Shown piece after piece: positions 1,130 through 59,281 of a stretch of 64,000 nucleotides of DNA. A program made the translations under genes and the position numbers. The notes beneath the pieces were generated by a model. That model saw only the letters and a list, made by a program, of their open reading frames with translations. It ran no database searches and had not been told where the DNA came from. Each line of letters begins with the position of its first letter. Positions within the stretch are counted from its first letter, which is position 1. This DNA is from Hydrogenophaga sp. (GTDB lineage: Bacteria; Pseudomonadota; Gammaproteobacteria; Burkholderiales; Burkholderiaceae_C), in the NCBI RefSeq assembly GCF_030651625.1, contig NZ_JAUSCF010000024.1, forward strand, positions 124,001 through 188,000. The letters are read 5' to 3'.

Positions 1130-1223
1130 CACCCCCGCGCCGCTTCGCGTCACCCCCTCAAGGGGGCAACATCTGCGGCCCGGCGGAGCCGGTTCCGCGA
1201 TGTTCTGGATGGGGACATTTCGC
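1130..1223 (+). repeat. 3'-end hairpin repeat (family A), copy after livG
   Basis: This copy starts eight bases after the livG stop and reads in the same direction. It has the three parts seen in the whole family: a small hairpin around CGCTTCGCG, a hairpin CCCC-TCAA-GGGG, and a long stem at 1170-1202 in which CATC pairs with GATG, GCGG with CCGC and CCGGC with GCCGG. It ends with the tail CTGGATGGGGACATTTC. It lies inside the liv operon, so it cannot be a complete transcription terminator if livF is co-transcribed. Confidence 0.85.
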
Positions 1224-1255
1224 GCCGGATGAAGTAACGAACAAGGAATCTGGTT

Positions 1256-1972
1256 ATGGCAAACACACTCCTCAAAATCAGTGGCCTGAAGGTCGCTTAT
1301 GGCGGCATCAAGGCTGTCAAGGGCATCGATCTGGAGGTGCAGGAGGGCGAGCTGATCTCGCTGATCGGCTCCAATGGCGCCGGCAAGACCACCACCATGA
1401 AGGCGGTGACCGGATCGCTGGCATTTGAAGGTGGCGATATCGAATACATGGGCAATTCCATCAAGGGCAAGGGTGCCTGGGATCTGGTGAAAGAGGGCCT
1501 GGCCATGGTGCCTGAGGGGCGCGGCGTTTTCACGCGCATGTCCATCACGGAGAACCTGCAGATGGGCGCCTACATTCGCAGCGACAAGGCGGAGATTGCG
1601 AGCGACATCGAACGCATGTTTGTGATCTTCCCTCGTCTGCGCGAGCGCAAGGATCAGTTGGCGGGCACCATGAGTGGTGGCGAGCAGCAGATGCTTGCGA
1701 TGGCTCGCGCCCTGATGAGCCGGCCGAAGGTGCTGCTGCTGGACGAGCCCTCGATGGGACTCTCGCCCATCATGGTCGACAAGATTTTTGAGGTGGTGCG
1801 AGATGTGTCCGCACAGGGCGTGACCATTCTCCTGGTGGAGCAGAATGCCCAGCGGGCGCTGCAGATCGCTCACCGGGGCTATGTGATGGACTCGGGTGAA
1901 ATCACCATGACGGGTTCTGGCAAGGATTTGCTGACCGATCCCAAGGTGCGCGAGGCTTATTTGGGACACTGA
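1256..1972 (+). CDS. livF: Branched-chain amino acid ABC transporter ATPase LivF
   Basis: This 238-residue protein is the second ATPase of the transporter and would pair with LivG under the permease dimer. Walker A is GSNGAGKT (38-45), the signature is MSGGEQQ (139-145), Walker B ends at LLDEP (161-165), and the protein ends in REAYLGH, all typical for LivF. The start ATG at 1256 follows an AAGGAA-like site. Its length fits the family (about 235). It is the last gene of the operon; a family A repeat and a strong terminator follow before lysS. Confidence 0.95.
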   Translation: MANTLLKISGLKVAYGGIKAVKGIDLEVQEGELISLIGSNGAGKTTTMKAVTGSLAFEGGDIEYMGNSIKGKGAWDLVKEGLAMVPEGRGVFTRMSITENLQMGAYIRSDKAEIASDIERMFVIFPRLRERKDQLAGTMSGGEQQMLAMARALMSRPKVLLLDEPSMGLSPIMVDKIFEVVRDVSAQGVTILLVEQNAQRALQIAHRGYVMDSGEITMTGSGKDLLTDPKVREAYLGH

Positions 1973-1975
1973 GTT

Positions 1976-2088
1976 CCCCCCGCGCCGCCTGCGGCGTCAC
2001 CCCCACGGGGCAACGCGGTGCGGCCCGTCCTGAGCTTTGTCGAAGGGCGGTTCCGCCGCGTTCTGGTCTGCGACACTTCGCGCCGGAC
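1976..2088 (+). repeat. 3'-end hairpin repeat (family A), copy after livF with loop insertion
   Basis: This copy starts a few bases after the livF stop in the same orientation. Its first hairpin is a perfect CGCCGC/GCGGCG stem. In the long stem AACGCGG pairs with CCGCGTT, where the livG copy has other bases. The usual short loop (GGA or AAA) is replaced by about 20 bp containing TCCTGAGCTTTGTCGAAGG, which looks like a separate repeat placed into the loop without breaking the outer stem. Confidence 0.8.
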
Positions 2089-2146
2089 ACGACACACTTC
2101 AGTCGCATGCTGGGAGAAGGTGTCTTTCCGCCGGAACTTACAATGT

Positions 2147-2178: not shown

Positions 2179-2192
2179 CATTGCAGAGCACC

Positions 2193-3740: not shown

Positions 3741-3743
3741 CCC

Positions 3744-3842
3744 ACCCCCGCGGCGCTGCGCGCCACCCCCTCAAGGGGGCACACCTTCGGACTGGCAAAG
3801 CCGGATCCTGGGTGTCGCTGGCGCTGGATGAAGGCATTTCGC
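3744..3842 (+). repeat. 3'-end hairpin repeat (family A), copy after lysS
   Basis: This copy begins directly after the lysS stop in the same orientation. The first hairpin is GGCGC-TGC-GCGCC, a fully compensated change from the livG copy. CCCCC-TCAA-GGGGG follows, then a stem around CTGGCAAAGCCGG, and the tail CTGGATGAAGGCATTTC. A further GC-rich palindromic stretch with the stem CCCTC/GAGGG continues to about 3905. Confidence 0.8.
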
Positions 3843-3921
3843 TCAGGATGGTGCGGCGCTCCCGCAGCGCTTCGCGCTGACCCTCATAGAGGGGCTGAGG
3901 GCTTGTGAATTCAGGACAGCG

Positions 3922-10035: not shown

Positions 10036-10140
10036 CACCCCCCGCGTCGCCTTTGGCGCCACCACCCTGCAAGGGGGGCGACATCTGAGGCCCGGCAGAG
10101 CCGGTTCCTCGGTGTCTCTGGATGGGTGTTGCTTCTTGCG
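10036..10140 (+). repeat. 3'-end hairpin repeat (family A), copy after imuB
   Basis: This copy begins ten bases after the imuB stop in the same orientation and fills most of the imuB-dnaE2 gap. In the long stem GAGG pairs with CCTC, where other copies have GCGG/CCGC or GTGG/CCAC, a compensated change. The tail CTGGATGGGTG follows. Confidence 0.8.
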
Positions 10141-10185: not shown

Positions 10186-13100
10186 ATGAACATCGCCGCC
10201 CTCCCCAACTACGCCGAACTGCGCTGCCTCTCCAACTTCAGCTTCCTGCGCGGCGCGAGCAAACCTGAAGAGCTGGTGGAGCGCGCCCAGGCGCTGGGCT
10301 ACAGCGCCCTGGCCCTGGTCGACGAATGCTCCATGGCCGGCATCGTGCGCGCGCATGTGGCCGCGAAAAAGCAGGGGCTGAAACTGCTGGTGGGTAGCCA
10401 GTTCCAGGTGCAGTGCGACACCCCGTTCACCCTGGTCGTGCTGGCCACCAACCTCAACGGTTACGGCAACCTCTGCGAGTTCATCACCCGCCTGCGCCGC
10501 TCGGCACCCAAGGGCACGTACCGGCTGGGGCTGGACGGTGTGGATGCCGATGCCTTGCACGATTGTCTGGCCATCGCCGTGCCCGACCGCGCCTGCGACC
10601 AGGCGCAGATGGACGTCATGGCGCGGTGGTTGCTGCAGCGCTTCCTGGGCCGTTGCTGGCTGGGCGTGGAACAGTTGCGCCGGCTTGATGACGAGATGCT
10701 GCTGCACAAGCTGCGCCAGAGCAGCGAACTTACCGCCGTGCCGCTGGTGGCCGTGGGCGACGTGCGCATGCACCTGCGCTCGCGCAAGCCCTTGCACGAC
10801 GTGCTCACTGCCACGCGCATCGGCCAGCCACTCACCGCCTGCGGTTTTGCGCTGGCGCAAAACGCCGAGCAACACCTTCGCTTGCGCTCGGCCCTGGCCC
10901 AGCGCTACCCGGCCGAGCTGCTGAGCGAGACCCTCCATGTGGCCGAGCGCTGCAGTTTCTCGCTCGACGAACTGCGCTACCAGTACCCCAGCGAAGTGGT
11001 GCCATCCGATGAAACGCCCACCAGCTACCTGCGCCGCCTGACCGGGGAAGGTGCGCGGCGGCGCTGGCCCGCAGGCACGTCGGCCAAGGAACGGCAACAA
11101 CTGGAGCACGAGCTGGCGCTGATTGCCGAGCTGGGCTACGAGCACTACTTCCTTACCGTGTACGACATCGTCGCTTTTGCGCGCTCGCAGAACATCCTCT
11201 GCCAGGGTCGGGGATCTGCGGCCAACAGTGTGGTCTGCTACTGCCTGGGCATCACCGAAGTGGACCCGGCGCGCGCTTCGGTGCTGTTCGAGCGCTTCAT
11301 ATCGAAAGAGCGCAACGAACCACCCGACATCGACGTGGACTTCGAGCACGAACGGCGCGAAGAAGTCATTCAGTACCTGTACCGCAAATACGGGCGCGAG
11401 CGCGCCGCACTCACCGCCACCGTCATCTGCTACCGCCCGCGCAGCGCCCTGCGAGACGTGGGCAAGGCGCTGGGGTTTGATGAAACCGCGCTCGACGTGC
11501 TGGGCAGCGGCCACCGCTGGTGGGACGTGGATGGCCTTGCGCCCGAGCGCATCCGCGAAGCGGGGCTCGACCCCGAAAGCCTGGCCGTGCGCCAGCTGGT
11601 GATGCTCACCGGCCAGCTCATGGGATTTCCGCGCCACCTCTCTCAGCACACCGGCGGCTTCGTGCTCACGCGCGGCCCGCTCTCACGCCTGGTGCCCATC
11701 GAAAACGCCACCATGGCCGACCGCACCGTCATCGAATGGGACAAGGACGACCTTGACGCCATGGGTCTGCTGAAGGTGGACGTGCTGGCGCTGGGCATGC
11801 TCACCGCGATCCGCAAGTCGCTCGCCTTCATCAGCCAGCGCAAGGGCTTTGAATTTCGCCTGCAGGACATCCCCGACAAGGACGACGCCACCTACGACAT
11901 GATCTGCGCCGCCGACACCGTGGGCGTGTTCCAGATCGAGAGCCGCGCACAGATGAGCATGCTGCCGCGCCTGCGCCCGCGTGAGTTCTACGATCTGGTG
12001 ATCGAAGTGGCGCTGGTGCGGCCCGGCCCCATCCAGGGCGGTGCGGTGCACCCCTACCTGAACCGTCGGCAAGGCAAAGAGCCGGTGGACTATCCCAAGG
12101 GTCTGGACGCTGCGCTGAAGCGCACGCTGGGTGTGCCCGTGTTCCAGGAGCAGTGCATGCAGATCGCCATCATCGCGGCCGGCTTCACCCCCGGTGAGGC
12201 TGACGGCCTGCGCCGCGCCATGGGTGCCTGGAAGCGCACGGGCGGCCTGGGACAGTACGAACACCGCCTGATCGACGGCATGACCGAGCGCGGCTACGAG
12301 CTGGACTTCGCCAAGCGCGTGGTGGAACAGGTGAAAGGTTTTTCCAGCTACGGTTTTCCCGAAAGCCATGCGGTCAGCTTCGCGCTGCTGGTCTACGACA
12401 GCTGCTGGATCAAACGCCACCACCCGGCCGAGTTCCTTGCCGCCATGCTCAACAGCCAGCCGCTGGGTTTTTATTCACCCAGCCAGCTGGTGCAGGACGC
12501 ACAACGCCATGGCGTGGAAGTGCGGCCGGTGGACGTGATGGTGAGCGACTGGGACTGCACGCTGGAAGAGGCAACTCCTCCGAGCGAAGTGTCCGACTCC
12601 CTCTCCCTCTGGGAGAGGGCAGGGGTGAGGGCCGGCCCACCAGAAGCCCCAGCCAACGCCCATGCCGTTAACTCACTTTCCCGCCATCGGAAGAGGGTTG
12701 GGGTGAGGGCTGTTCCCGAGTCCACCATGCCCGCCGTGCGCCTGGGTCTGTGCATGGTCAGTGGCTTGTCGAAAGACACCGCCGAACGCATCGTCGCCGC
12801 GCGTGAAGGAGCCGATCCAGCACACCGCACGGAACCGGCTTCGCCGGGCCGCAGGTGTGGCCCCCCTGGGGGGGTGACGCGAAGCGGCGCGGGGGGGGGC
12901 TTCCTTGACCCAGAAGACCTTGCCCGCCGCGCCGAGCTGGACCGGCAGACCATGCAGCAACTCGCCGCCGCCGACGCGCTGCAATCCCTGAGTGGCCACC
13001 GCCGCCAGCAGGTTTGGGACGCCGCTGCACTCAAGGCCCCTCCCGAGCTGCTCAAGGAAGCACCGGTGGACGAAGCCTCACTGGCCTTGCCCGAAGCCCC

Positions 13101-13518
13101 CGAAGGCGAAGCCATCGTCTGGGACTACGCCAGCCTGGGCCTGACCCTACGCCGCCATCCGCTGGCCCTGTTGCGCGAGCGCCTGCAGGCCCGTCGTTTC
13201 ATGACCGCCGAAACCCTGAACAGTCTGCCCAACGGCAAACTGGTGCGCGCCTGCGGCATCGTCACCGGCCGCCAGCAGCCCGAAACCTCCAAAGGCGTGG
13301 TCTTCGTGACGCTGGAAGACGAAACCGGCGTGGTGCAGGTCATCGTCTGGAAAGCCCTGCGCGACCGCCAGCGCACCGAACTCATCCGCTCAAGGCTGCT
13401 GGCCGTGCGCGGCGTGTGGCAGCGCGAAGGCGAGGTGTGCAACCTCATCGCCGGCCACCTGGAAGACCTGACGCCGCTGCTGGGCAGGCTCGCGACGGAG
13501 AGTCGGGATTTTCATTGA
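10186..13518 (+). CDS. dnaE2: Error-prone DNA polymerase DnaE2 with two in-frame repeat insertions
   Basis: This 1110-residue protein is the catalytic subunit of the damage-inducible ImuA-ImuB-DnaE2 polymerase. An N-terminal PHP domain (YAELRCLSNFSFLRGASKPEE) is followed by the C-family palm with PDIDVDFEHERREEV and by helix-hairpin-helix and OB-fold regions near the C-terminus. Usual length is about 1020-1080. Two segments have no family counterpart that I recognise: about 796-847 (repeat family B) and 875-905 (family A repeat in antisense). Both keep the frame open. The second contains a run of nine G at 12891-12899, a likely slippage site. GGAGAGG precedes the ATG. Whether the inserts affect activity is unknown. 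Confidence 0.92.
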   Translation: MNIAALPNYAELRCLSNFSFLRGASKPEELVERAQALGYSALALVDECSMAGIVRAHVAAKKQGLKLLVGSQFQVQCDTPFTLVVLATNLNGYGNLCEFITRLRRSAPKGTYRLGLDGVDADALHDCLAIAVPDRACDQAQMDVMARWLLQRFLGRCWLGVEQLRRLDDEMLLHKLRQSSELTAVPLVAVGDVRMHLRSRKPLHDVLTATRIGQPLTACGFALAQNAEQHLRLRSALAQRYPAELLSETLHVAERCSFSLDELRYQYPSEVVPSDETPTSYLRRLTGEGARRRWPAGTSAKERQQLEHELALIAELGYEHYFLTVYDIVAFARSQNILCQGRGSAANSVVCYCLGITEVDPARASVLFERFISKERNEPPDIDVDFEHERREEVIQYLYRKYGRERAALTATVICYRPRSALRDVGKALGFDETALDVLGSGHRWWDVDGLAPERIREAGLDPESLAVRQLVMLTGQLMGFPRHLSQHTGGFVLTRGPLSRLVPIENATMADRTVIEWDKDDLDAMGLLKVDVLALGMLTAIRKSLAFISQRKGFEFRLQDIPDKDDATYDMICAADTVGVFQIESRAQMSMLPRLRPREFYDLVIEVALVRPGPIQGGAVHPYLNRRQGKEPVDYPKGLDAALKRTLGVPVFQEQCMQIAIIAAGFTPGEADGLRRAMGAWKRTGGLGQYEHRLIDGMTERGYELDFAKRVVEQVKGFSSYGFPESHAVSFALLVYDSCWIKRHHPAEFLAAMLNSQPLGFYSPSQLVQDAQRHGVEVRPVDVMVSDWDCTLEEATPPSEVSDSLSLWERAGVRAGPPEAPANAHAVNSLSRHRKRVGVRAVPESTMPAVRLGLCMVSGLSKDTAERIVAAREGADPAHRTEPASPGRRCGPPGGVTRSGAGGGFLDPEDLARRAELDRQTMQQLAAADALQSLSGHRRQQVWDAAALKAPPELLKEAPVDEASLALPEAPEGEAIVWDYASLGLTLRRHPLALLRERLQARRFMTAETLNSLPNGKLVRACGIVTGRQQPETSKGVVFVTLEDETGVVQVIVWKALRDRQRTELIRSRLLAVRGVWQREGEVCNLIAGHLEDLTPLLGRLATESRDFH
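12592..12714 (+). repeat. Family B palindromic repeats inside dnaE2
   Basis: CCCTCTCCC pairs with GGGAGAGGG at about 12597-12621 and is followed by GGGGTGAGGGC; a second, partial unit with AGAGGGTTGGGGTGAGGGC ends near 12712. The same layout occurs between genes at 41763-41802 and 42035-42073. Here the insertion keeps the dnaE2 frame and adds about 50 residues, including SDSLSLWERAGVRAG. Confidence 0.8.
12808..12900 (-). repeat. Complete family A repeat inside dnaE2, antisense and in frame
   Basis: Read on the minus strand this is a full family A unit: CGCCGCTTCGCGTCA, the C7/G6 hairpin, the stem CACACC/GGTGTG around CCGGC-GAA-GCCGG, and the tail beginning CTGGATC. It is the only complete copy found inside a gene and the only one oriented against its host gene. 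It contains G9 at 12891-12899 and G7 at about 12868-12874 on the plus strand. Confidence 0.88.
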
Positions 13519-23525: not shown

Positions 23526-23582
23526 GAATTTGAACTCCTATGAACGAAGAAACTTGATCGAGATGATGGTCTCGGCGGAGTG

Positions 23583-23680
23583 AAATGCCTCCATCCAGAG
23601 ATGCCGTGGAACCGGCTTTGCCGGGCCACAGGCATCGCCTCCCTTCCAGGGGGGTGACGCCGAAGGCGGCGCGGGGGGTA
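23583..23680 (-). repeat. 3'-end hairpin repeat (family A), copy after the aldehyde dehydrogenase
   Basis: Read on the minus strand this unit starts about 15 bases after the stop of the gene at 23695. The first stem is CGCCG/CGGCG. The long stem pairs GATGCC with GGCATC, GTGG with CCAC and CCGGC with GCCGG, all compensated relative to the livG copy. The tail is CTGGATGGAGGCATTTC. Confidence 0.88.
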
Positions 23681-23694: not shown

Positions 23695-25128
23695 TCAACC
23701 GTGCTTGATGGCGACTGTCTTCAAGACCGTGAACCCGTACAGCGCCTCAAAGCCCTTTTCGCGCCCGTGGCCGGAAGACTTCACACCGCCAAACGGCAGC
23801 TCCACGCCGCCGCCGGCACCGTAGTTGTTGATGAACACCTGGCCCGCGCGCACGCGTTTGGCCATGCGGAACTGGCGCCCGCCATCGCGCGTCCACACCC
23901 CGGCCACCAGGCCGAAGGACGTGCCGTTGGCGAGTTGCACCGCGTGGTCTTCGTCGTCGAAGGCCATGGCGGAGAGCACCGGGCCGAACACCTCTTCCTG
24001 CGCCAGCCGGTGGTCTGCCGGCACGTCGCGCAGCAGGGTGGGGGCGGCGTAGAAACCGGCGCTCGCGGCCTCCGCCACCACGCGGCCTTGTGCCACGGTG
24101 GCGATGCCATCGGCCTCGGCCTGCGCCAGGAATCCCTGCACACGCTCCATCTGGCTCTGGCGGATCAGCGGGCCCAGGTCCAGGTTCATGGCGGGGGGGC
24201 CAGCGCGCAGCTCGGTGAAGCGCTGGCCCAGCCGCTCCAGCAAGGGCTCATACAGCGACCGTTCCACCAGCAGACGCGAACCAGCGCTGCAGGTCTGGCC
24301 GCTGTTCTGCACGATGGCGTTGACGATGAAGGGCAGGGCAGCGTCGATGTCGGCGTCGGCAAACACGATCTGTGGCCCCTTGCCACCCAGCTCCAGCGTC
24401 ACCGGGCAGTGGCGCTCGGCGGCAGCCTGCTGGATCAGCGTGCCCACGCGTGGGCTGCCGGTGAAGCTGATGTGGTCGATGCCGGGGTGGCGCGCCAGCG
24501 CGTCGCCCACCTCGTGGCCGTAGCCGGTGACGATGTTGATGCAGCCCGCAGGAAAGCCGGCTTCCACTGCCAGTTCGGCCACGCGCAGCAGCGACAGGCA
24601 GGCGTCTTCCGACGGTTTGACCACGCACACATTGCCGGCGGCCAGCGCGCCACCCACGCAGCGGCCAAAGATCTGCATGGGGTAGTTCCAGGGCACCACG
24701 TGGCCAGTCACGCCGTGTGGCTCGCGCCAGGTGAGCACGCTGTAGCCCTCGAGGTAGGGAATGGTGTCGCCGTGCAGCTTGTCGCCCGCGCCAGCGTAAA
24801 ACTCGAAGTAGCGCACCAGCGCCAGCGCGTCGGCTTTGGCCTGTGCCACGGGCTTGCCGCAGTCGCGCTGTTCAATGGCGGCGAGTTCGTCGGCGTGCTC
24901 GGCCACCTTCTGGCTCAGCTTCATGAGCAGGCGCCCGCGCTCGGCGGCGGTGGTGCGCGCCCAGGTGCGCTCATAACATTCGCGGGCGGCGCGCACGGCG
25001 TCGTCGATATCAACCGCGTTGCTGCGCTCGATGGTGTCATAGGCCTGGCCGTCTGCCGGGTCAATCACCGGCAGCGTCTGGCCCGAGGCCGAGCGCACGG
25101 CGGTGTTGGCGATGTGGTTCAGTGCCAT
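23695..25128 (-). CDS. NAD(P)-dependent aldehyde dehydrogenase
   Basis: This 477-residue enzyme oxidises an aldehyde to the acid. The catalytic cysteine is in NSGQTCSAGSR, the general-base glutamate in LELGGKGPQ, and VPWNYPMQIFG is the usual substrate/cofactor segment. Length is normal for the superfamily (about 480). It follows the TRAP transporter genes by 16 bp and may belong to the acid-sugar operon, for example oxidising a C2-C4 aldehyde. The exact substrate is not visible. Confidence 0.88.
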   Translation of the reverse strand: MALNHIANTAVRSASGQTLPVIDPADGQAYDTIERSNAVDIDDAVRAARECYERTWARTTAAERGRLLMKLSQKVAEHADELAAIEQRDCGKPVAQAKADALALVRYFEFYAGAGDKLHGDTIPYLEGYSVLTWREPHGVTGHVVPWNYPMQIFGRCVGGALAAGNVCVVKPSEDACLSLLRVAELAVEAGFPAGCINIVTGYGHEVGDALARHPGIDHISFTGSPRVGTLIQQAAAERHCPVTLELGGKGPQIVFADADIDAALPFIVNAIVQNSGQTCSAGSRLLVERSLYEPLLERLGQRFTELRAGPPAMNLDLGPLIRQSQMERVQGFLAQAEADGIATVAQGRVVAEAASAGFYAAPTLLRDVPADHRLAQEEVFGPVLSAMAFDDEDHAVQLANGTSFGLVAGVWTRDGGRQFRMAKRVRAGQVFINNYGAGGGVELPFGGVKSSGHGREKGFEALYGFTVLKTVAIKHG

Positions 25129-27042: not shown

Positions 27043-27090
27043 GGGCTGGTGGCGCTACAGAAAATGAGGCCCTCGACGAGCGAGGGGAAG

Positions 27091-27209
27091 TGAAATCCAG
27101 TCACACCAAGGGTCCGGCTCCGCCGGCCCAAGGTGTTGTGCCCCTGGGGGGAATACGGGCCGGAAGGCCCGGCGCAGAGGGCGAGTCTGTCCTTCCGGCG
27201 CAGGGGGCG
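27091..27209 (-). repeat. 3'-end hairpin repeat (family A), diverged copy after dctP
   Basis: This copy directly abuts the dctP stop and reads in the gene's direction, filling most of the dctP-dctQ gap. The long stem is CACC-TTGGG with CCC-TTGGTG around GGC-GGA-GCC. It is longer and more diverged than other copies. A separate small hairpin CCCTCG/CGAGGG lies at 27070-27087. Confidence 0.7.
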
Positions 27210-28181
27210 TTACTTCACAGCTTGAATGGCAGCGATTTTGTCGGCACCGAACTCTTTCGCGAAGGCAGCGTAGGCAGGTGCTACGGCCTTGCGGAAGCTC
27301 TCCCCGTCGACCTTCTCGACCACCTGCATGCCTTCGCTCTTGAGCTGGGCGATGCCGTTGTTCTCGTCGTCGTTGACTTTCTTGCGCTGGGCAGCGGCGC
27401 CCTTCTTGGCGGCGTCGGTGAAAGCGGCCTTGTCGGCGGCGGACAGCTTGCTCCACACGGCAGGCGAGAGGATCAAGGCGGCGGGTGAATACACGTGGCC
27501 GGTCAGCGACAGGTGCTTCTGCACCTGCGAGAACTTGGACGCCAGGATCACTGGAATGGGGTTTTCCTGTCCGTCAACCGTGCCTTGCTGCAGCGCGGTG
27601 AACAGCTCCGGGAAGGCCATGGGCGTGGGCAGGATGCCGAAGGTCTTGTAGCCGTCCATGTGCACCTTGTTTTCCATGGTGCGCATCTTCAGGCCGTTGG
27701 CATCGGTGGCCTGGTTGATGGCGCGCTTGCTGTTGGTCATGTGGCGGAAGCCGTTTTCGGTCCAGGCCAGGTTGATCAGGCCCTTGGCTTCCATCTTCTT
27801 CTGCAGGTCCTGGCCGATGGGGCCGTCCATCACCTTGCGGGCATGGTCGTAGTCGCGGAACAGGAAGGGGATGTCGACGATCTTCACTTCCGGCACGAAG
27901 TTGCCGAGCGGGCCGGTGGAGGTGTTGACGATGTCCTGTGTGCCCAGTTGCACCGCTTCGATCTGCTCGCGTTCACCGCCCAGCGCCGAGTTGGGGAACT
28001 GCTGGCACTTGTAGCGGCCTTGTGTGCCCTTTTCCATTTCTTCGCAGAACACGGTGGAGCCCACGCCGTAGTGCGAGGTGGCCGAGGTGGCGTATCCGAT
28101 CTTCAGCACGGTCTGGGCCTGCACGGCGCCCGAGGCGGCCAGGATGGCGGCGAGAGCGATGGGTTTGATGAGTTGTTTCAT
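27210..28181 (-). CDS. dctP: TRAP transporter periplasmic binding protein DctP
   Basis: This 323-residue protein has a cleavable signal peptide (MKQLIKPIALAAILAASGA, then VQAQ) and the DctP fold, including GFRHMTNSKRAI, which contains the arginine that binds the carboxylate of the ligand in this family. It is the first transporter gene in the operon and should bind a four-carbon sugar acid. The upstream open frame to 28298 is not needed; the ATG at 28181 starts the signal peptide. Confidence 0.93.
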   Translation of the reverse strand: MKQLIKPIALAAILAASGAVQAQTVLKIGYATSATSHYGVGSTVFCEEMEKGTQGRYKCQQFPNSALGGEREQIEAVQLGTQDIVNTSTGPLGNFVPEVKIVDIPFLFRDYDHARKVMDGPIGQDLQKKMEAKGLINLAWTENGFRHMTNSKRAINQATDANGLKMRTMENKVHMDGYKTFGILPTPMAFPELFTALQQGTVDGQENPIPVILASKFSQVQKHLSLTGHVYSPAALILSPAVWSKLSAADKAAFTDAAKKGAAAQRKKVNDDENNGIAQLKSEGMQVVEKVDGESFRKAVAPAYAAFAKEFGADKIAAIQAVK

Positions 28182-33866: not shown

Positions 33867-34074
33867 ATTTGACCGAGATTGTCGGTCGGGGTTTTCCCTT
33901 GGATGCGCCCGATGCGCTTTCGCCTGCGGCAAGGGACCCGACGCGAAGCGACGCAAAGTGGAATTTCCCCGGGAGTCAGGCTCGCAGCGTGCGAAGTGAC
34001 CCTTCCCAGGGGCACCGAAGAACCATCGCATGGGAGAACCCTCCCGGAGCGCGAGTTGTACTGGACGCGGACAT

Positions 34075-34180
34075 CTGTTCCAGGGGCACCGCAGAACCGG
34101 CTATGCCGGGCTGAGGGTGCCGTCCCCCTCCAAGCCGAAGGCGCAAGAGAGGGGGAAGCCGCGAAGCGGCGCAGGGGGTG
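34075..34180 (-). repeat. 3'-end hairpin repeat (family A), copy after the serine hydrolase
   Basis: This unit abuts the stop of the gene at 34182 and reads in its direction. The long stem pairs GCACC with GGTGC around CCGGC-ATA-GCCGG. The CCCCC/GGGGG hairpin is enlarged and encloses CAAGCCGAAGGCGCAAG, as in the egtB copies. Confidence 0.8.
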
Positions 34181-34181: not shown

Positions 34182-35387
34182 TTACTCCAACGCAGCGTAG
34201 GCCAACGTGCGAAAAAGCTGGCGGAAGTGATCGCGCTGGTTCGGCGCCTGGGCCAGCAGGATGCCAAAGAAATCTTCAGCCGGGTCCACGAAGAAGGTGG
34301 TACCGGCTATACCGCCCCAGTGGTAGGTGCCGACCGAACCGGGCAGCGTGGACAGGCCGGCTGCGGTGCGCACCGCAAAGCCCAGGCCAAACCCGTGGCC
34401 GGGCTGCAGCAGCATGCCGTCTCCTGCAATGCTGCCCAGGTGGTCGGCCGTCATGTGCGCCACGGTGTGGGAGCCGAGCAGGCGCGTACCACCCAGTTCG
34501 CCCTTGTTGAGCATGAACTGCAGGAAGCGCGCGTAGTCGGCGGCTGTGGACATGAGGCCGCCACCGCCGCTCTCCATGGCGGGCGCCTTGCGCGGCTCGA
34601 GCACCCGCAGCGGAACGCCGCCATCGGGATCGTGTGCATAAGGTTCCGCGATGCGGTGGTGGTCGGCTTCGGGCACCACGAAGGCGGTGTCGACCATGCC
34701 CAGCGGGTCGAAGATGGCCTGTTTCAGATGCTGGCCCAGCGTCTGCCCGGTCAGTACTTCCAGCAGACGGCCCAGCACGTCGGTGGCGCGGCTGTACCCC
34801 CATTGGGTGCCTGGCAGCAGGAACAGCGGCATGGCCGCCAGGGTGCGGCTGAACTCGGCGTTGCTGCGCTCACGCGAAGCGATCTGGGCTTGCGCATACA
34901 GGCGTTGCACGTGCGCAGCACCCAGAAACTCATAGGTGAGGCCGGCCGTGTGGCGCAGCAGGTCCTGCACCGTGGCAGGCGTGGTCACGGGTTGCAACTG
35001 CACCTCGCCATTGCGCTCCACAGCCACTTGTTGATCGGCAAACTCGGGCAGGTGCCTGGCCACCGGGTCGGTCAGCAGCACACGGCCCTGTTCCACCTGC
35101 ATCATGACCGCCACCGACACGATGGGTTTGGTCATCGAATAAATGCGGAAGATCGCGTCGTTCGTCATGGCCGCGCCGGTGGCCGGGTCGAGCTGGCCCA
35201 GGCTTTCCATCAGTGCGAGCTTGCCGCGCCGCCCCAGCACCGCCACCGCGCCCGGCAGGCGACCGCGCGCATTTTCGTCGAGCAACACATCCATCAGGCG
35301 GCGTGTGCGGTCGGGGCACAGGCCCAGCTCTGCCGGTTCGGCCAGGGGCAGCTGCAGTGCGGAGAGGCTGGCGGGATTCTGGGTCAT
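34182..35387 (-). CDS. Serine hydrolase of the beta-lactamase/penicillin-binding family
   Basis: This 401-residue protein has the class C-type catalytic pattern: SxxK as SMTK (S84, K87), YSR at 198-200 in place of YxN, and a C-terminal GYGxG-like HWGG (TYHWGGIAGT) in place of KTG. Relatives are esterases, D-aminopeptidases and lactamases; the modified motifs favour an esterase (EstB-like). No signal peptide is apparent from the ATG at 35387, so it is likely cytoplasmic. The upstream open frame to 35588 lacks family sequence. Confidence 0.82.
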   Translation of the reverse strand: MTQNPASLSALQLPLAEPAELGLCPDRTRRLMDVLLDENARGRLPGAVAVLGRRGKLALMESLGQLDPATGAAMTNDAIFRIYSMTKPIVSVAVMMQVEQGRVLLTDPVARHLPEFADQQVAVERNGEVQLQPVTTPATVQDLLRHTAGLTYEFLGAAHVQRLYAQAQIASRERSNAEFSRTLAAMPLFLLPGTQWGYSRATDVLGRLLEVLTGQTLGQHLKQAIFDPLGMVDTAFVVPEADHHRIAEPYAHDPDGGVPLRVLEPRKAPAMESGGGGLMSTAADYARFLQFMLNKGELGGTRLLGSHTVAHMTADHLGSIAGDGMLLQPGHGFGLGFAVRTAAGLSTLPGSVGTYHWGGIAGTTFFVDPAEDFFGILLAQAPNQRDHFRQLFRTLAYAALE

Positions 35388-37136: not shown

Positions 37137-37186
37137 CACCCCCGCCTCGCTTTGCGCGAATCCCTCAAGGGGGCGGCGCCCTGGAC
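37137..37186 (+). repeat. 3'-end repeat (family A), partial copy after the NnrU gene
   Basis: Only the first part is recognisable: CACCCCCGCCTCGCTTTGCG, then CCCTCAAGGGGGC, and a remnant CCCTGGA. It lies ten bases after the stop in the same orientation; the covarying stem is lost. Confidence 0.6.
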
Positions 37187-37336
37187 TGCGCACTCACATG
37201 CGCTGCAGATCCGGCTCCGGGGTGATAGAAAGAAGACCGATACCGGGTCGCGGAACCTGTTGAAGTTGCCTGCCGGGGGAACCCACGCCCCTTGTCGGCA
37301 TCCACCCATGCTGTGTTTGGCCTTCAGGAGACCGAT

Positions 37337-39853: not shown

Positions 39854-40253
39854 ACCCCCCTGCGCCGCTGACGCGGCTTCCCCCCTCTCTGGCGCGGCTT
39901 TGCCGCTTGGAGGGGGGACGCACCTGGTGGCCCGGCAAGCCGGTTCCACGGGTGCCCTGGATGGGGGCATCTCTCGCCAGTGGCTCTTTGGAACTCCCCC
40001 CTGCGCTGCTGACGCAGCTTTCCCCCTCTCTGGCGCGGCTTTGCCGCTTGGAGGGGGGACGCACCCTGTGGCCCGGCAAGCCGGTTCCACGGGTGCCCTG
40101 GATTGAGGCATCTCTCGCCGGAGGCTCTTTGGAACTCTCCCCTGCGCTGCTGACGCGGCTTCCCCCCTCTCTGGCGCGCCTTCGGCGCTTGGAGGGGGGA
40201 CGGCACGTTGGGCCGGCGGAGCCGGACCCTTGGTGCCCCTGGATGGGTTCACT
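39854..40253 (+). repeat. Three tandem copies of the family A 3'-end repeat, period 141 bp
   Basis: Copies begin with TGCGC at 39861, 40002 and 40143, exactly 141 bp apart, directly after the egtB stop and in its orientation. In these copies the C6/G6 hairpin encloses a second hairpin (GCGGC/GCCGC). The long stem pairs GCACC with GGTGC and GTGG with CCAC in copies 1 and 2; copy 3 has diverged (GGCGGAGCC core). No gene lies in this 400-bp stretch. Confidence 0.92.
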
Positions 40254-40928
40254 TCACTCCGGGTAGCCCAGTGCAGGATGGCCCACGCCTTCTGCGGCAC
40301 GCCAACCAGGGCGCTTGAACCAGTCTCGCCAACTGGCCTCATCTGCCGGCCATGGCTGATCGGGGAAACGCTTTTCCCATTCGGTGCGCGCCTGTGCCAT
40401 TGAACGGTGGTGGGGCACTTTGTTCAGCGTTGCGGACAACGTGGCTGAACGCCAGCCCTCGTCCTGAATGTCTTGCCAGATCGGATCTGCATGGCCGATG
40501 TGCCAGGTGGGGTCGAGTGACCACGCGGCCTGCGCAGCCGCACTGCCGAAGATGTACAGGCGCCCATCCACGATCTGCCAGTGCGTGGGATCGCTGCCGA
40601 ACTTGCGGCCGAATGCCAGTCCGTGCGCGCAGAAGCCGCCGTACTGTGGTTCGTATTTCGCAGGGTCGGCGATGAAGTCGAAGCGGTTCTGGTCGGTGGC
40701 GAAGTAGTAGGTGCGCTGGAACATCACCAGCTTGTGCTGCGCGCTTCCCTTCACCTGCTTGCTTTCGGTGAAGTACGCCACCGGGTCGTGGCCCAGCAGC
40801 ATCACGGGTTCGCCCGCGCGGTTGGGCACTGTGGCCCAGGGAGCGCCGCAACCACCCAGAAATGCCGTCAGAAAAAGAACAGAAAGGAATCTGAATAGGG
40901 AATGCATGACCGCCATCTTGCCCTGCAT
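40254..40928 (-). CDS. YHS domain-containing lipoprotein
   Basis: This 224-residue protein has a signal peptide with lipobox FLGGC and a YHS-like domain (GHDPVAYFTESKQVKGS ... QYGGFCAHGLAFG). YHS domains are linked to copper or other metals. The start ATG follows the stop of the upstream permease with no gap (TGAATG), so it is translationally coupled to the ABC transporter; internal ATGs at 40916 and 40907 are also possible. Its place as the last gene of a transporter operon suggests a role in handling the imported compound. Confidence 0.78.
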   Translation of the reverse strand: MQGKMAVMHSLFRFLSVLFLTAFLGGCGAPWATVPNRAGEPVMLLGHDPVAYFTESKQVKGSAQHKLVMFQRTYYFATDQNRFDFIADPAKYEPQYGGFCAHGLAFGRKFGSDPTHWQIVDGRLYIFGSAAAQAAWSLDPTWHIGHADPIWQDIQDEGWRSATLSATLNKVPHHRSMAQARTEWEKRFPDQPWPADEASWRDWFKRPGWRAAEGVGHPALGYPE

Positions 40929-42932: not shown

Positions 42933-42971
42933 GGCAACTTGTGACCAGACGCGGCGTACGGCAGCGGCGCC

Positions 42972-43059
42972 GTCCAGCAGCAGCCACAGAACCGGCTCTG
43001 TCGGGCTGCAGGCTGCGCCCCCCTTCCGGGGGGGTGACGCGAAGCGGCGCGGGGGGTAT
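42972..43059 (-). repeat. 3'-end hairpin repeat (family A), copy after phnC
   Basis: This unit begins about six bases after the phnC stop and reads in its direction. It has CGCCGCTTCGCGTCA, a C7/G6 hairpin and the core CCCGACAGAGCCGG, in which the stem is partly weakened. It fills the phnC-phnE gap inside an operon. Confidence 0.8.
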
Positions 43060-43065: not shown

Positions 43066-43953
43066 CTACCTGCAATGCATGGCCACCGGTTGTGGTCCGC
43101 TGGACACGGCATCGGGCGCAGCCACCGGCACTTCACCGCGCAACTCGTGCTCGAACTGATCGTACAGCTGGGTCAACAGCTCGCGCGTCACCAAGCTTGC
43201 GGGCAGATCGAACGCCAGCGCACCGTCGCGCAGACCCACGATGCGTGGAAAGCTGGCCAGAGCCACGTCCACCTGGTGCAGTGTGGCCACGAGCGTGGCA
43301 CCATGGTCCCGTGCGCTGTTCACCAGGGTGGTAATGGCTTGACGTGAGCGGGTGGGGTCCAGGGCCGATAAAGGCTCATCGATCAAAAGCAATGTGGAAC
43401 CCTCTGGCCCTCGCTCATTCGGGTTGCCTGCTTCCGAGGCAGGACGTGCCATGGCAATCAACGCCCGAGCCAGTCCCACCCGCTGTCGTTCTCCACCAGA
43501 AAGCCGGTCCACACGTTCAAACAGCTTGTCGCCCAGATCAAACCGCTCCAGCGCTTCAAATGCCGCGGGAATGTAGGACGGGTAGAACAGCGAGCGCAGG
43601 CTGGCCCACAGACCCATGTGGGGCAGGCGCCCGGCCAACACCGCAGTGACCACCCGCTGCCGTGGCGGTAGCGGGGGTACCTGGGGTGCCAGGAACAGGC
43701 GGGCGCGCAGCTTCTGCAACGCACTGCGTCGCAGTTGCCATGGCGCGATGCCATCCAGGCTTAGTTGCCCGGTGGTGGGTGGCAGTGCGCAGGCCAGCAC
43801 CTGCAGCAGCGTGGTTTTGCCCGCGCCCGATGGGCCGATCACCGCCACTTGCTCACCGGCCGCAATGCGCAGGCTCAGGTCCTTGATGGCGGGTGGCGCA
43901 TTGCCGCGCGCGGCCGGGTGGCGGGCGCTGACCGCTTCGAGTTCCAGCTTCAA
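43066..43953 (-). CDS. phnC: PhnC-type ABC transporter ATPase
   Basis: This 295-residue ATPase has Walker A GPSGAGKT (40-47), signature LSGGE (151-155) and Walker B LLLIDEP (188-194). Between signature and Walker B there are about 14 extra residues (ASEAGNPNERGPEG) compared with usual PhnC proteins. The best start is a TTG at 43953 (LKLELEAVSA), 22 bp after the phnD stop; no upstream ATG or GTG fits better. It energises the PhnE permeases. Confidence 0.85.
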   Translation of the reverse strand: MKLELEAVSARHPAARGNAPPAIKDLSLRIAAGEQVAVIGPSGAGKTTLLQVLACALPPTTGQLSLDGIAPWQLRRSALQKLRARLFLAPQVPPLPPRQRVVTAVLAGRLPHMGLWASLRSLFYPSYIPAAFEALERFDLGDKLFERVDRLSGGERQRVGLARALIAMARPASEAGNPNERGPEGSTLLLIDEPLSALDPTRSRQAITTLVNSARDHGATLVATLHQVDVALASFPRIVGLRDGALAFDLPASLVTRELLTQLYDQFEHELRGEVPVAAPDAVSSGPQPVAMHCR

Positions 43954-52999: not shown

Positions 53000-53045
53000 G
53001 ACTGTCTCCTTGTTTCTAGTGGTGGGCCGGTTCGGGGTCCGGAGC

Positions 53046-53137
53046 GCGAGGCCTCTGTTCCAGAACACCGCGGAACCGGCTTTGCCGGGCCGCTGGTGTT
53101 GCCCCCTGGGGGGTGACGCCGAAGGCGGCGCGGGGGG
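53046..53137 (-). repeat. 3'-end hairpin repeat (family A), copy after boxD
   Basis: This unit directly abuts the boxD stop and reads in its direction, filling most of the boxD-bclA gap. The long stem pairs AACACC with GGTGTT, GCGG with CCGC and CCGGC with GCCGG; the first stem is CGCCG/CGGCG. All pairs are compensated relative to other copies. The tail is CTGGAACAGAGGC. Confidence 0.88.
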
Positions 53138-54709
53138 TTAATACATTACGCCTTGGCTTGCCAGCACGTCCAGTGCCGCTGTGCTTCCCTGTACCGCACT
53201 GCGCCGGTGGTAGAACCCCAGCGCACGCAGGCCACCCAGTTCCTCGCCGCCGCCCGCCCGGCCTGGTCCACCGTGCAGGCTCATGGGCATCACGTTGCCA
53301 TGGCCGCTTTGCACGGCCGCGACATCGGGCGAAATGGCGTGCACGCGGCCATGGCTGTCGGCCAGTGCGGCGGCGGCGCGGGCAATGAAGGCCGGGTCGC
53401 TGCTGTACACCGACGCCACCAGCGAGCCTTCGCCGCGTCGAATCAACTCATAGGCCTGTTCTTCGTTGTCGTAGGCCATCAGGGTGGCCACAGGCCCGAA
53501 CACTTCCACTTCGTGAAGCACTTTGGCCTGCAACGGCTGTCGGTGACCCAGCAGCACCGGCGCCACGCAGGCGGCCACCGTCGGGTCGGCATCGATCAGT
53601 GCGGCCGACCGTCCATCGAACAGCGTCTCGGCTTCCGTCTGCAGGTGAGCGATCCCGGCGGTCACGCTGTCGAATTGTTCGCGACTCACCAGGGCGCCCA
53701 TGCGCGCGGTTTCGTTGCGCGGATTGCCCACCGTGGTCTTGGAGAGCTTGGCGCCGATGGCCTGGGCGGCGGCATCAAACAGCGCGCCGGGCACGAATAT
53801 GCGCCGGATGGCGGTGCACTTCTGACCGCTCTTGACCGTCATCTCGCGCACCACCTCGCTCACCAGGAGGTTGAAGGCTTCGTCGCCTGCGGCGGCCGCC
53901 GGGTCGAGCAAGGCGCTGTTGAGGCTGTCGGCCTCGATGTTGCAACGCACCGAACGCTGCGCCACCGCCGGGTGGCTGCGTATGATGCGCGCGGTTTCGG
54001 CCGATCCGGTGAAGCTCACCACATCAAAGGGCTGCAACTGGTCCATCAGCCCGGCGGACGAGCCGCACACCACGGACAGCGCGCCTGCGGGCAGGATGCC
54101 GGCGTCCACCACGTCCTTCACCATGCGCTGCGTCAGCCAGGCGGTGGCGGTGGCGGGTTTCACGATCACCGGCACGCCCGAAAGCAGGGCGGGTGCCGCT
54201 TTTTCCCACAAACCCCAACTGGGGAAGTTGAAAGCATTGATGAACAGCGCCACGCCGCGCGTGGGGCTCATGATGTGCTGGGTCTGGAACACCGGGTCCT
54301 TGGCCATGCGGATGCGCTCGCCATCCAGCAGCAGCGTTGCATCACCAAGGGCTTCGCCCTGTTTGGCGTAGTAGCCCAGGGTGAAGATGCCGCCGTCGAT
54401 GTCCACCGCCGAATCCTTGGTGGTGGTGCCGCAATTGGCGGTGGCGATTTCATAGTACGCATCGCGGTGGGTTTGCAGCACCTTGACGATCTCGCCCAGC
54501 AGCGCGGCCCTTTGTTTGTAAGTGAGCGCTCGCAGGGCTGCTCCGCCTTGTTCGCGCGCAAAGGCGAAACCTTCGGACAGTTCCAGCCCGGTGCTGCTTA
54601 CGCGGACCAAGGGGGTGCCCAGCAGCGGATCCATCAGGGTGGCGCCGTTGCCGGTTCCTTCTTGCCAGCGGCCAGCGATGAAATTGGGGAGTAGGGGCGT
54701 TGGGTTCAT
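53138..54709 (-). CDS. boxD: 3,4-dehydroadipyl-CoA semialdehyde dehydrogenase BoxD
   Basis: This 523-residue aldehyde dehydrogenase oxidises the ring-opened semialdehyde from BoxC, with NADP in studied members. The catalytic cysteine is in KSGQKCTAIRR, the glutamate in NIEADSLNSA, and INAFNFPSWGLWEKAAPAL is typical of the BoxD/PaaZ-like branch. It is divergent from boxR across a 152-bp region with BoxR-type operators. Confidence 0.92.
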   Translation of the reverse strand: MNPTPLLPNFIAGRWQEGTGNGATLMDPLLGTPLVRVSSTGLELSEGFAFAREQGGAALRALTYKQRAALLGEIVKVLQTHRDAYYEIATANCGTTTKDSAVDIDGGIFTLGYYAKQGEALGDATLLLDGERIRMAKDPVFQTQHIMSPTRGVALFINAFNFPSWGLWEKAAPALLSGVPVIVKPATATAWLTQRMVKDVVDAGILPAGALSVVCGSSAGLMDQLQPFDVVSFTGSAETARIIRSHPAVAQRSVRCNIEADSLNSALLDPAAAAGDEAFNLLVSEVVREMTVKSGQKCTAIRRIFVPGALFDAAAQAIGAKLSKTTVGNPRNETARMGALVSREQFDSVTAGIAHLQTEAETLFDGRSAALIDADPTVAACVAPVLLGHRQPLQAKVLHEVEVFGPVATLMAYDNEEQAYELIRRGEGSLVASVYSSDPAFIARAAAALADSHGRVHAISPDVAAVQSGHGNVMPMSLHGGPGRAGGGEELGGLRALGFYHRRSAVQGSTAALDVLASQGVMY

Positions 54710-57587: not shown

Positions 57588-57594
57588 GAAAGAT

Positions 57595-57692
57595 CCCCCC
57601 GCGCCGCGCTTCGCGCGTCACCCCCCAGGGGGCGATGCGAGTGGCCCGGCAAAGCCGGTTCCACCGCACCCTGGATTGAAGACATTTCACCC
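57595..57692 (+). repeat. 3'-end hairpin repeat (family A), copy after boxC
   Basis: This unit starts seven bases after the boxC stop in the same orientation. The first hairpin is CGCGC-TTC-GCGCG, then CCCCC-CA-GGGGG. The long stem pairs TGCG with CGCA, GTGG with CCAC and CCGGC with GCCGG. The tail is CTGGATTGAAGACATTTC. Confidence 0.88.
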
Positions 57693-57722
57693 CACTGATT
57701 CACCCACCCGCAGGAGACCAAC

Positions 57723-59150
57723 ATGTCCACCATCGACTACAGCGACAAGATCCCGAACAACGTCAACCTGAGTGAAGACCGCACACTGCAGCGCGCGCTG
57801 GAGCAGTGGCAGCCCAACTACCTCAAGTGGTGGGACGACATGGGCCCGGACGGCTCGCAGAATTTCGACGTCTACCTGCGCACAGCGGTCAGCGTCGATC
57901 CGCAGGGCTGGGCGCAGTTCGGCCACGTGAAGATGCCTGACTACCGCTGGGGCATCTTCCTGAATCCGGCCGAGCAGGACCGCAAGATTCATTTCGGTGA
58001 CCACAAAGGCGAAGCCGCCTGGCAAGACATCCCCGGCGAATACCGCGCCAACCTGCGCCGCATCATCGTGACGCAGGGCGACACCGAACCGGCGTCGGTC
58101 GAGCAGCAACGCCACCTGGGCCTCACCGCGCCCAGCCAGTACGACCTGCGCAACCTGTTTCAGGTCAACGTGGAAGAAGGTCGCCACCTCTGGGCCATGG
58201 TGTACCTGCTGCACAAGTACTTTGGCAAGGACGGCCGCGAAGAAGGCGAAGCCCTGCTCGAGCGCAACAGCGGCAACGCCGACAACCCGCGCATTCTGGA
58301 GGCCTTCAACGAAGAAACGCCCGACTGGCTGAGCTTCTTCATGTTCACCTACTTCACCGACCGCGACGGCAAGTTCCAGCTCTGTGCTCTCGCCGAATCC
58401 AGTTTCGACCCGCTGGCCCGCACCACCAAGTTCATGCTGACCGAAGAGGCCCACCACATGTTCGTGGGCGAGTCCGGCGTGAGCCGCGTGATCAACCGCA
58501 CCTGCCAGGTGATGAACGAGCTCAAGACCGACGACCCGGCCAAGTTGCGTGCCGCCGGCGTGATCGACCTGCCGACCATCCAGCGTTACCTGAACTTCCA
58601 CTTCAGCGTGACCATCGACCTGTTCGGTGCTGACGAGTCCAGCAACGCCGCCACCTTCTACAGCACCGGTCTCAAGGGTCGCTATGAAGAAGGCAAGCGC
58701 ACCGACGACCACGTGCTCAAAGGCCAGTTCTACAAGGTGCTCAACGTGCAGAACGGCCAGCTGGTCGAAAAAGAGGTGCCGATGCTCAACGCACTCAACG
58801 AAGTGCTGCGCGACGATTACATCAAGGACAGCGTCGGTGGCGTGGAGCGCTGGAACAAGGTGATCGACAAGGCCGGCATCCCGTTCCGTCTGACCGTGCC
58901 CCACAAGGCTTTCCACCGCAACATCGGCCTGCTCAAGGGCGTGAAGGTCGCACCCGATGGCCGTGTGGTGTCCGAGGCCGAATGGAACGCCAACCGCGAC
59001 AACTGGTTGCCCAGCGAGTCTGATCGCGCATTTGTGGCCAGCCTGATGGGTCGCGTGGTGGAGCCGGGCAAGTTCGCCAACTGGATCGCGCCGCCTGTCA
59101 TGGGCATCAACCGTCAGCCGGTGGACTTCGAGTATGTAAGGTTCGGATAA
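57723..59150 (+). CDS. boxB: Benzoyl-CoA 2,3-epoxidase oxygenase subunit BoxB
   Basis: This 475-residue enzyme is a soluble di-iron oxygenase. Carboxylate and histidine ligands fit the pattern expected for BoxB: E122, E152 and H155 (VEEGRHLW), D213 (FTDRDG), E242 and H245 (EEAHHMF). It adds one oxygen atom across the benzoyl-CoA ring, with electrons from BoxA. GGAGACC lies before the ATG. A family A-like repeat flanked by 12-bp direct repeats separates it from boxA; the left direct repeat overlaps its last codons. Confidence 0.95.
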   Translation: MSTIDYSDKIPNNVNLSEDRTLQRALEQWQPNYLKWWDDMGPDGSQNFDVYLRTAVSVDPQGWAQFGHVKMPDYRWGIFLNPAEQDRKIHFGDHKGEAAWQDIPGEYRANLRRIIVTQGDTEPASVEQQRHLGLTAPSQYDLRNLFQVNVEEGRHLWAMVYLLHKYFGKDGREEGEALLERNSGNADNPRILEAFNEETPDWLSFFMFTYFTDRDGKFQLCALAESSFDPLARTTKFMLTEEAHHMFVGESGVSRVINRTCQVMNELKTDDPAKLRAAGVIDLPTIQRYLNFHFSVTIDLFGADESSNAATFYSTGLKGRYEEGKRTDDHVLKGQFYKVLNVQNGQLVEKEVPMLNALNEVLRDDYIKDSVGGVERWNKVIDKAGIPFRLTVPHKAFHRNIGLLKGVKVAPDGRVVSEAEWNANRDNWLPSESDRAFVASLMGRVVEPGKFANWIAPPVMGINRQPVDFEYVRFG

Positions 59151-59281
59151 CCCCCCTGCGCCGCTGACGCGGCTTCCCCCCTTTCTGGCGCGCCTGCGGC
59201 GCATGAAGGGGGGACGGCATCTTGAGCCGGCGGAGCCGTCCCTTGCTGCCCCTGGACTGGGGCACGCGCGCCGGCTCCGTT
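59147..59281 (+). repeat. Family A repeat after boxB, flanked by 12-bp direct repeats
   Basis: TGTAAGGTTCGG occurs at 59135-59146 (last codons of boxB) and again at 59282-59293, exactly bracketing the repeat unit. This suggests a duplication made when the unit arrived. The unit has the enlarged C6/G6 hairpin as in the egtB copies. Downstream, CCGGCTCCGTT at about 59271 is inversely repeated at about 59388-59398 (AACGGAGCCGG), so the rest of the 334-bp gap can also fold. I see no gene in it. Confidence 0.8.

Follow-up and report, generated by a model that had tools for sequence, protein, structure and literature searches.

Interspersed palindromes in bacteria were recognized decades ago, but the reason for their siting at the 3' ends of genes is unsettled. 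A 64,000-nt stretch of the Hydrogenophaga sp. assembly GCF_030651625.1 (contig NZ_JAUSCF010000024.1, positions 124,001 to 188,000; hereafter the window) raises the same question, with a three-hairpin unit of roughly 100 bp recurring just behind stop codons. Is this unit a selected RNA structure at transcript 3' ends, as was originally predicted from the letters of the window, or a DNA repeat that moves? The reading that we favor, with moderate confidence, is that the copies form a family of non-autonomous palindromic DNA repeats of about 100 bp, of the REP/YPAL/BRE kind, which are stop-adjacent and of fixed sense polarity in Comamonadaceae-type Burkholderiaceae. Its recurring traits are an asymmetric bulge, a position mostly 0 to 10 nt behind stops, turnover between species and tandem arrays.

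Repeat copies in the window

A covariance model (R1) built from eight window copies retrieved 16 copies from the window at E ≤ 0.0034, comprising 15 intergenic copies behind the genes of the original prediction and an antisense one, unlisted there, inside dnaE2. The intergenic copies follow 13 genes, egtB alone being followed by three in tandem. All 11 of those in co-directional spacers are oriented as the upstream gene, while the four behind lysS and egtB occupy convergent spacers and take the orientation of the gene whose stop precedes them. The weakest scores belong to the copies at 37137 (28.1 bits) and 59151 (22.0 bits). The copies, with R1 scores, are as follows.

1130..1227, + strand: copy 7 nt after the livG stop, livG/livF junction (105.1 bits; site empty in five relatives)
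1975..2085, + strand: copy after livF, with a CTGAGC-TTGTCGAAG repeat in place of the core loop (46.1 bits)
3743..3846, + strand: copy 2 nt after the lysS stop, convergent spacer (83.2 bits; not in L220 or L072)
10037..10140, + strand: copy after imuB, imuB/dnaE2 junction (88.0 bits)
12797..12897, - strand: copy within dnaE2, antisense to the gene and translated in frame (88.4 bits and translation)
23576..23679, - strand: copy after the aldehyde dehydrogenase gene (23695-25128, - strand) (101.8 bits)
27081..27180, - strand: copy after dctP (27210-28181, - strand) (37.0 bits)
34061..34179, - strand: copy after the serine hydrolase gene (34182-35387, - strand) (62.3 bits)
37137..37248, + strand: degenerate copy after the NnrU-like gene (28.1 bits)
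39855..39979, + strand: egtB tandem copy 1 of 3 (141-bp units, tandem family D1) (55.5 bits)
39996..40120, + strand: egtB tandem copy 2 of 3 (59.4 bits)
40137..40261, + strand: egtB tandem copy 3 of 3 (43.6 bits)
42955..43057, - strand: copy after the phnC-like gene (43066-43953, - strand) (78.6 bits)
53040..53138, - strand: copy after boxD (53138-54709, - strand) (94.3 bits)
57594..57694, + strand: copy after boxC, boxC/boxB junction (89.3 bits; other occupants in relatives)
59151..59273, + strand: copy immediately after the boxB stop codon (22.0 bits; another subtype at that place in G015)

Curated NCBIfam cut-offs were passed by lysS, dnaE2, dctP, egtB, boxD, boxC and boxB, and the best NCBIfam matches of livG, livF, phnC, the aldehyde dehydrogenase and the serine hydrolase fell under the cut-off. 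The imuB and NnrU open reading frames had no NCBIfam match, and both names are those of the original prediction. The core pattern matched 34 times in the window against 7.0 expected, a number reached in none of 100 shuffles (both strands, most copies being counted twice). An Rfam scan gave no family at E ≤ 1 overlapping any window copy.

Orientation and distance to stop codons

Named lysS orthologs put the genome within Hydrogenophaga or beside it. It comprises 4.27 Mb in 39 contigs, of which 800 kb from five contigs were taken as a systematic sample. The 179 own-genome copies analyzed, from 1.24 Mb, are the 66 of this sample and the window together with 113 from 20 stretches picked for richness. 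Genes were called with our own simple gene caller, and their start positions are uncertain. The orientation predicted from the window extends to the genome: between co-directional genes lie 125 copies, 120 of them sense and 5 antisense, and in the systematic set and window alone all 42 of 42 are sense. The remaining copies are convergent (37), divergent (6), in called coding regions (7) or at edges (4). Among the convergent copies 26 of 37 are closer to the gene whose direction they share, and five convergent spacers (L153, L156, L158, L161, L167) hold two opposed copies, each directly behind its own gene.

Among the 108 co-directional copies whose gaps are clean, 71 begin within 10 nt of the stop codon. 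A uniform-placement control gave a mean of 18.9 and a maximum of 33 in 2000 runs, and barring the last 25 nt raised these to 34.8 and 47. In 28 spacers with at least 150 nt beside the first copy, 20 first copies begin within 20 nt of the stop versus 2.5 expected under uniform placement, and none lies that close to the next start; this room includes further copies, and choosing the copy nearest the stop slightly favors closeness. The pattern recurs outside the genus: in stretches around strong matches from 14 genomes of 12 other genera, with genes called by a caller trained on Hydrogenophaga, 12 of 13 co-directional copies are sense and one antisense, and of the other three of the 16 copies two overlap a called gene end in sense and one lies at an edge. 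Stops within 8 nt before a copy (n = 83) are TGA 54 times, TAG 17 and TAA 12, compared with 846, 130 and 86 among 1062 called genes, a mild lean toward TA stops (29/83 versus 216/1062).

Hairpin structure and covariation

The unit opens with a GC hairpin (often GCGCCGC-TTCG-GCGTC), followed by a hairpin of a C-tract and a G-tract whose loop sometimes contains an extra hairpin. In the main stem, an outer segment of 6 bp and a further one of 4 bp lead to a CCGGC/GCCGG core closed by a three-base loop, after which come CTGGAT and a tail resembling GGCACTTCGCTCCGG. The covariation noticed in the window holds on 150 own-genome copies, in which standard pairs fill 94.9% of pair cells and double changes occur at 20 of 25 pairs. 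Cells with double changes number 451 versus a shuffle mean of 118.4, and none of 500 shuffles reached 451; slid-register controls were 38.9 to 51.4% paired. The first hairpin covaries as predicted, the weakest of the hairpins at 88.3% paired. With this larger alignment and the counts from the own genome and other genera, covariation, position relative to stops and orientation all prove non-random.

Outer stems are diverse, with 42 distinct types among 128 well-paired copies. Among the 150 aligned copies, 148 have an internal bulge of one base versus two in the main stem, usually C/TT, T/CC or A/AT, a count taken from an alignment fitted to the model and so leaning toward this shape; in the A/AT type the A is able to pair, leaving a single bulged base. 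A CTGAGC-TTGTCGAAG palindrome replaces the core loop at window position 1975, L042 2694, L054 6516 and L048 9064, and the outer stems of these copies differ; the parts therefore act as modules. Being palindromic, this pattern is uninformative on orientation.

Pairing at the RNA or DNA level

Selection on the sense RNA would tolerate G-U pairs (GU) and not A-C mismatches (AC). In our main test, stems were placed by Watson-Crick pairs only and columns were dropped where either kind exceeded 5%. At the remaining, rarely deviating columns, 24 GU versus 23 AC were counted in the 128 copies (of 179) that form 12 or more of the 15 pairs, and 25 versus 24 in the 158 copies that form 10 or more. Similar columns in the model alignment of 150 copies gave GU/AC counts of 26/22 in the main stem, 6/10 in the second hairpin and 4/3 in the first. 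With no excess of GU over AC at rarely deviating pairs, selection for pairing of the sense-strand RNA is not supported by these sequence comparisons. Over all columns of the model alignment the counts are 69/27 (main stem), 9/30 (second hairpin) and 104/5 (first hairpin, 84 of the 104 GU being one pair), and the main-stem GU total rises above AC chiefly through a few pairs with GU fixed in many copies.

Several highly variable pairs switch among AU, GC and CG with almost no GU between. At an orthologous site with coding DNA about 92% alike, the core pair is T-A, C-G and G-C in G003, G012 and G010 (L241, L250, L258), and behind boxB the whole core is swapped between G003 and G011 (L240 7954 versus L242 7663) with the outer stem unchanged. 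These switches and the core swap fit double changes made in a single event. Such changes are known to arise by template switching in imperfect palindromes. In yeast DNA under high transcription, that process has been tied to RNA-DNA hybrids, according to the part of PMC3820800 available to us. Covariation among repeat copies, taken alone, consequently fails to prove that an RNA is selected: correction of palindromes at the DNA level could yield the same pattern, and the GU excess is absent at rarely deviating pairs.

Turnover at orthologous junctions and copies within genes

The original prediction set the repeat apart from inert insertions, a contrast that comparison with relatives does not support. 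The copies are mobile insertions, since orthologous sites are empty or alternately filled, copies lie inside genes, and tandem arrays and subfamilies occur. The livG/livF gap measures 12 to 17 nt in five relatives versus 133 nt in the window. At livF/lysS, a full copy is present in L072 and a shrunken one in L220, L073 lacks a copy and L077 has another repeat; any copy at all is present at five of 80 lysS loci examined with flanks of up to 6 kb, and L072 alone among the five has it at livF/lysS. Sixteen genomes were readable at imuB/dnaE2, where four hold the repeat (G000, G003, G005, G007; the last two judged by eye), G001 holds another palindrome and eleven have no insert. Of 13 readable boxC/boxB loci including our own, six have the repeat, four another hairpin (G015 among the genomes with it), one a third repeat and two a gap of 35 to 36 nt; in the five other loci with the repeat, three were judged by eye, and G003 and G018 are also R1 matches. 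Directly after the boxB stop, G000 and G015 carry different subtypes.

Three copies lie deep in genes (dnaE2, recG and a histidine-kinase frame), all antisense and all read in frame, and the other four of the seven coding-region copies are at called gene ends. Ortholog protein matches break off at the dnaE2 copy (12797-12897), and the recG frame has a second stretch with a similar peptide (by eye). In DnaE2 (window 10186-13518) a further stretch (SLSLWERAGVRA...) upstream of the antisense copy is missing from most ortholog alignments and looks like another in-frame repeat insertion.

Copy number and distribution

Genome-wide, the core pattern with at most one mismatch gave 163 matches versus none for a reversed control, and R1 matched all 150 candidates scored among 2392 first-look candidates, a lower bound. 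The systematic 800 kb contain 50 copies at E ≤ 0.05, making the window (16 in 64 kb) about four times richer; this suggests roughly 270 copies per genome if the five sampled contigs are typical.

Scoring the best 20 or fewer candidates per genome (R1, E ≤ 1e-4), we found copies in at least 141 of 200 genomes and at least 101 of 126 genera of the Genome Taxonomy Database family, and in 24 of 24 genomes examined of the genus itself. R1 found no copy in 16 genomes drawn from the order's other families. Of 22 named genomes, each scored for its best 150 or fewer candidates, 17 contain copies: Variovorax (at least 62, 60 and 148), Ramlibacter (at least 114 and 24), Polaromonas (at least 37, 103 and 69), Hydrogenophaga flava (at least 51), Pseudorhodoferax (at least 49), Hylemonella (at least 37), Acidovorax (at least 36 and 15), Rhodoferax (at least 22 and 13) and Delftia (at least 3 and 3). 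Among the candidates scored there were none in two Comamonas genomes, Curvibacter, Corticibacter or Brachymonas. With numbers ranging from 0 to at least 148, the distribution is therefore patchy.

One window copy had no match at E ≤ 1e-3 among 50,697 phage records, and matched 8 of 72,556 plasmid records, five of them Variovorax. Six plasmid matches were inspected: those in SRS16, PBL-E5 and Diaphorobacter begin 29, 61 and 14 nt after an annotated stop, in sense (distances to a match that begins at query letter 14), one in Methylibium is antisense within an annotated transposase gene, and two records have no gene table there.

Comparison with known repeat families

Among known kinds of repeat the closest are REP, YPAL and, above all, BRE, a likeness judged in the case of BRE from its published description. 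The accounts below follow the portions of each report available to us. BRE (Hot et al., 2011; PMC3110155) is a GC-rich element of about 90 bp in Bordetella and Comamonadaceae (29 copies in Polaromonas JS666), with tandem copies, some copies in coding genes and variation between genomes. The 13 loci in its table are all tandem or convergent, and none is divergent. The R1 family resembles it in length and GC content, in its hosts and in having tandem and coding-region copies, and shares its host pattern, being multicopy in Comamonadaceae and rare or absent in some genera. Delftia acidovorans SPH-1 is listed there with 13 BRE, and two other Delftia genomes have at least three R1 copies each. In contrast to the R1 family, those portions describe for BRE neither a rule of orientation to genes or stop codons nor covariation.

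REPs tagged with GTAG or CGTC (PMC3733652, 2013) are palindromes of 20 to 40 bp, often dimers, the GTAG type being tied to RAYTs. They lie near the 3' ends of upstream open reading frames in co-directional and convergent spacers, so that closeness to gene ends is already known for REPs from that source; some are intragenic, many of those in replication and repair genes, which the R1 copies in dnaE2 and recG resemble. The R1 family differs in its polar three-hairpin unit, its sense orientation and the lack of a RAYT link. That work interprets GT pairs within stems as indicating transcription, whereas in the R1 family GU is not above AC at rarely deviating pairs. In our 179 copies GTAG occurs near the 5' end in 11 and CTAC near the 3' end in 3; CGTC, which in CGTC-tagged REPs marks the end of a hairpin with a stem of 8 to 9 bp, is present in 131 (15-nt flanks included) as part of GGCGTC or GCGTC of the first hairpin.

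YPAL/RU-2 and ERIC (PMC2229807, 2007) are mobile palindromes of 100 to 170 bp with RNA hairpins, empty and filled sites and open frames fusing to genes; YPAL target duplications range from 3 to 26 bp, and the effect of ERIC on RNA depends on orientation. Their hosts differ from those of the R1 family, the likeness is one of description, and the excerpted text gives no comparable orientation count. Pneumococcal BOX elements (PMC3049150, 2011) are small, interspersed, transcribed and over-represented between convergent genes. Unlike the R1 family, their modular boxA-B-C design comes with no strict sense rule in the text available. Open-access literature, mainly titles and the starts of abstracts, yielded no orientation rule for such repeats in Comamonadaceae, and the accessible parts of PMC12306157 and PMC2267715 contain nothing on the R1 family. 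Relative to this partial literature, the strict sense polarity, the roughly 42 complementary outer-stem types and the missing GU bias appear to be new.

Alternative explanations

If the family is a DNA repeat, as we favor, its stems would be held complementary at the DNA level, by template switching or conversion within the palindrome and/or by a protein recognizing the folded single strand. Polarity would arise from insertion into single-stranded, transcription-exposed DNA just after the last translated codon, or else from fast loss of other insertions. A copy in 3' untranslated RNA may add a hairpin barrier to decay, as a by-product rather than a demonstrated means of keeping the family; single copies may have an RNA role. 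We put forward only tentatively that the family represents a class of mobile elements with insertion coupled to expression, entering single-stranded untranslated DNA past stops in one polarity, thereby colonizing the 3' ends of genes throughout a bacterial family, and exchanging hairpin modules.

Several observations count against a plain DNA repeat. Before columns were dropped, GU exceeded AC by 45 to 25 in the 128 copies (21 of the 45 from one pair) and by 83 to 38 in the 158, and the 47 events of the main test leave room for weak RNA selection. In eight close orthologous pairs, gaps excluded, the element is more alike than the upstream coding DNA in four (97.8/89.1 for L240_9400 versus L249_13300, 97.1/90.8, 95.8/87.9 and 91.0/87.8%) and less alike in four (86.6/92.4, 84.8/91.7, 80.0/91.7 and 85.3/88.7%); the higher identity in the first four could reflect selection in place. 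The bulge makes some recognition of shape likely, because plain palindrome correction would erase a lasting asymmetry. The search for a mobilizing enzyme covered Y1 transposases only, not enzymes of other kinds, and found none: 0 of 30 Y1_Tnp loci have an R1 match (flanks of about 1.5 kb, E ≤ 0.1), and Y1 presence is unrelated to copy number over 37 genomes. Y1_Tnp is present in 33 of the 37 at E ≤ 0.001, including four without copies (G250, G253, G254, G259), and absent from G245 (60 copies), G258 (24), G002 (24) and G256, which has neither; our own genome has one Y1 gene with no copies nearby. The RAYT/Y1 transposase was rejected as mobilizer, as most genomes have a single such gene whether or not they carry copies, and none of the 30 Y1 loci scanned contains one. 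Finally, the filled imuB/dnaE2 junctions show no consistent target-site duplication. One, perhaps two, of the four are candidates: in G003 ATGAACA (the dnaE2 start) stands on both sides of the insert, and in G000 the upstream flank is a near match only (ATGAAGAAC versus ATGAAC). No terminal inverted repeats of the kind that define a MITE were seen by eye in the copies listed.

The original prediction placed a selected structure at the RNA 3' end, where the folded sense transcript would block exonucleases or tune operon polarity and only stop-adjacent sense copies would be kept. The covariation and the non-random place and polarity that it invoked stand, and the asymmetric bulge (148/150, in the alignment fitted to the model), the compensatory differences at the L241/L250/L258 site and the four orthologous pairs in which the element is better conserved than the coding DNA speak for it as well. 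What is missing is the excess of GU over AC at rarely deviating pairs; variable pairs flip with few GU intermediates, and junctions turn over, relatives keeping the gene pairs without the repeat. We consider such an RNA element rather unlikely. Neutral insertion nearly anywhere and in either polarity, with purifying selection sparing stop-adjacent copies and antisense copies harming the downstream gene, would agree with the few divergent copies (6/179) and with only three lying deep in genes. It is nevertheless improbable, as copies are still stop-adjacent in roomy spacers (20/28) and antisense ones make up only 5 of 125; we see no evident reason for strong harm from an antisense copy lying a few nucleotides after a stop. 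The combination of 120 sense copies in 125, more than 100 sites in some genomes, empty sister sites and many stems makes targeting versus selection directly testable.

A transcription terminator or attenuator at operon ends is suggested by GC-rich hairpins after stop codons and by the first 50 nt of the sense strand, C-rich (47% C, 29% G) as Rho sites can be. Against it, TTTT occurs near the 3' end (30 nt before to 25 nt past the model end) in just 23 of 179 copies, and copies occupy the livG/livF, imuB/dnaE2 and boxC/boxB junctions. In the systematic 800 kb, occupancy of co-directional gaps (element subtracted) is 8/128 at 0 to 40 nt, 12/114 at 40 to 100 nt, 5/64 at 100 to 200 nt, 3/71 above that and 1/103 for negative gaps, versus 7/188 for convergent ends. 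Because occupancy of convergent ends is not above that of short co-directional gaps, a terminator role is unlikely, in line with the prediction that the unit is no simple terminator, and as an account of the family we give it very little credence. An integron attC reading, with a site behind each stop, was dropped; the copies follow housekeeping genes.

Other repeats at the same junctions

Two further repeats were seen at these places. A second hairpin repeat (GTTGTGCGGTGGG...GGAGCCAGCCGCAACC) occupies boxC/boxB of L199, L207, L209 and L212 (other Hydrogenophaga) and also occurs at L221 9735-9862; its 3' half has no match in 61 own-genome stretches. A third repeat, starting CCCCCACGCTCCGCC, likewise lies behind stop codons, at imuB/dnaE2 in L173 and at livF/lysS in L077. 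Its start motif CCCCCACGCTC is found in own-genome stretches at 10 sense and 4 antisense co-directional places, a weaker rule.

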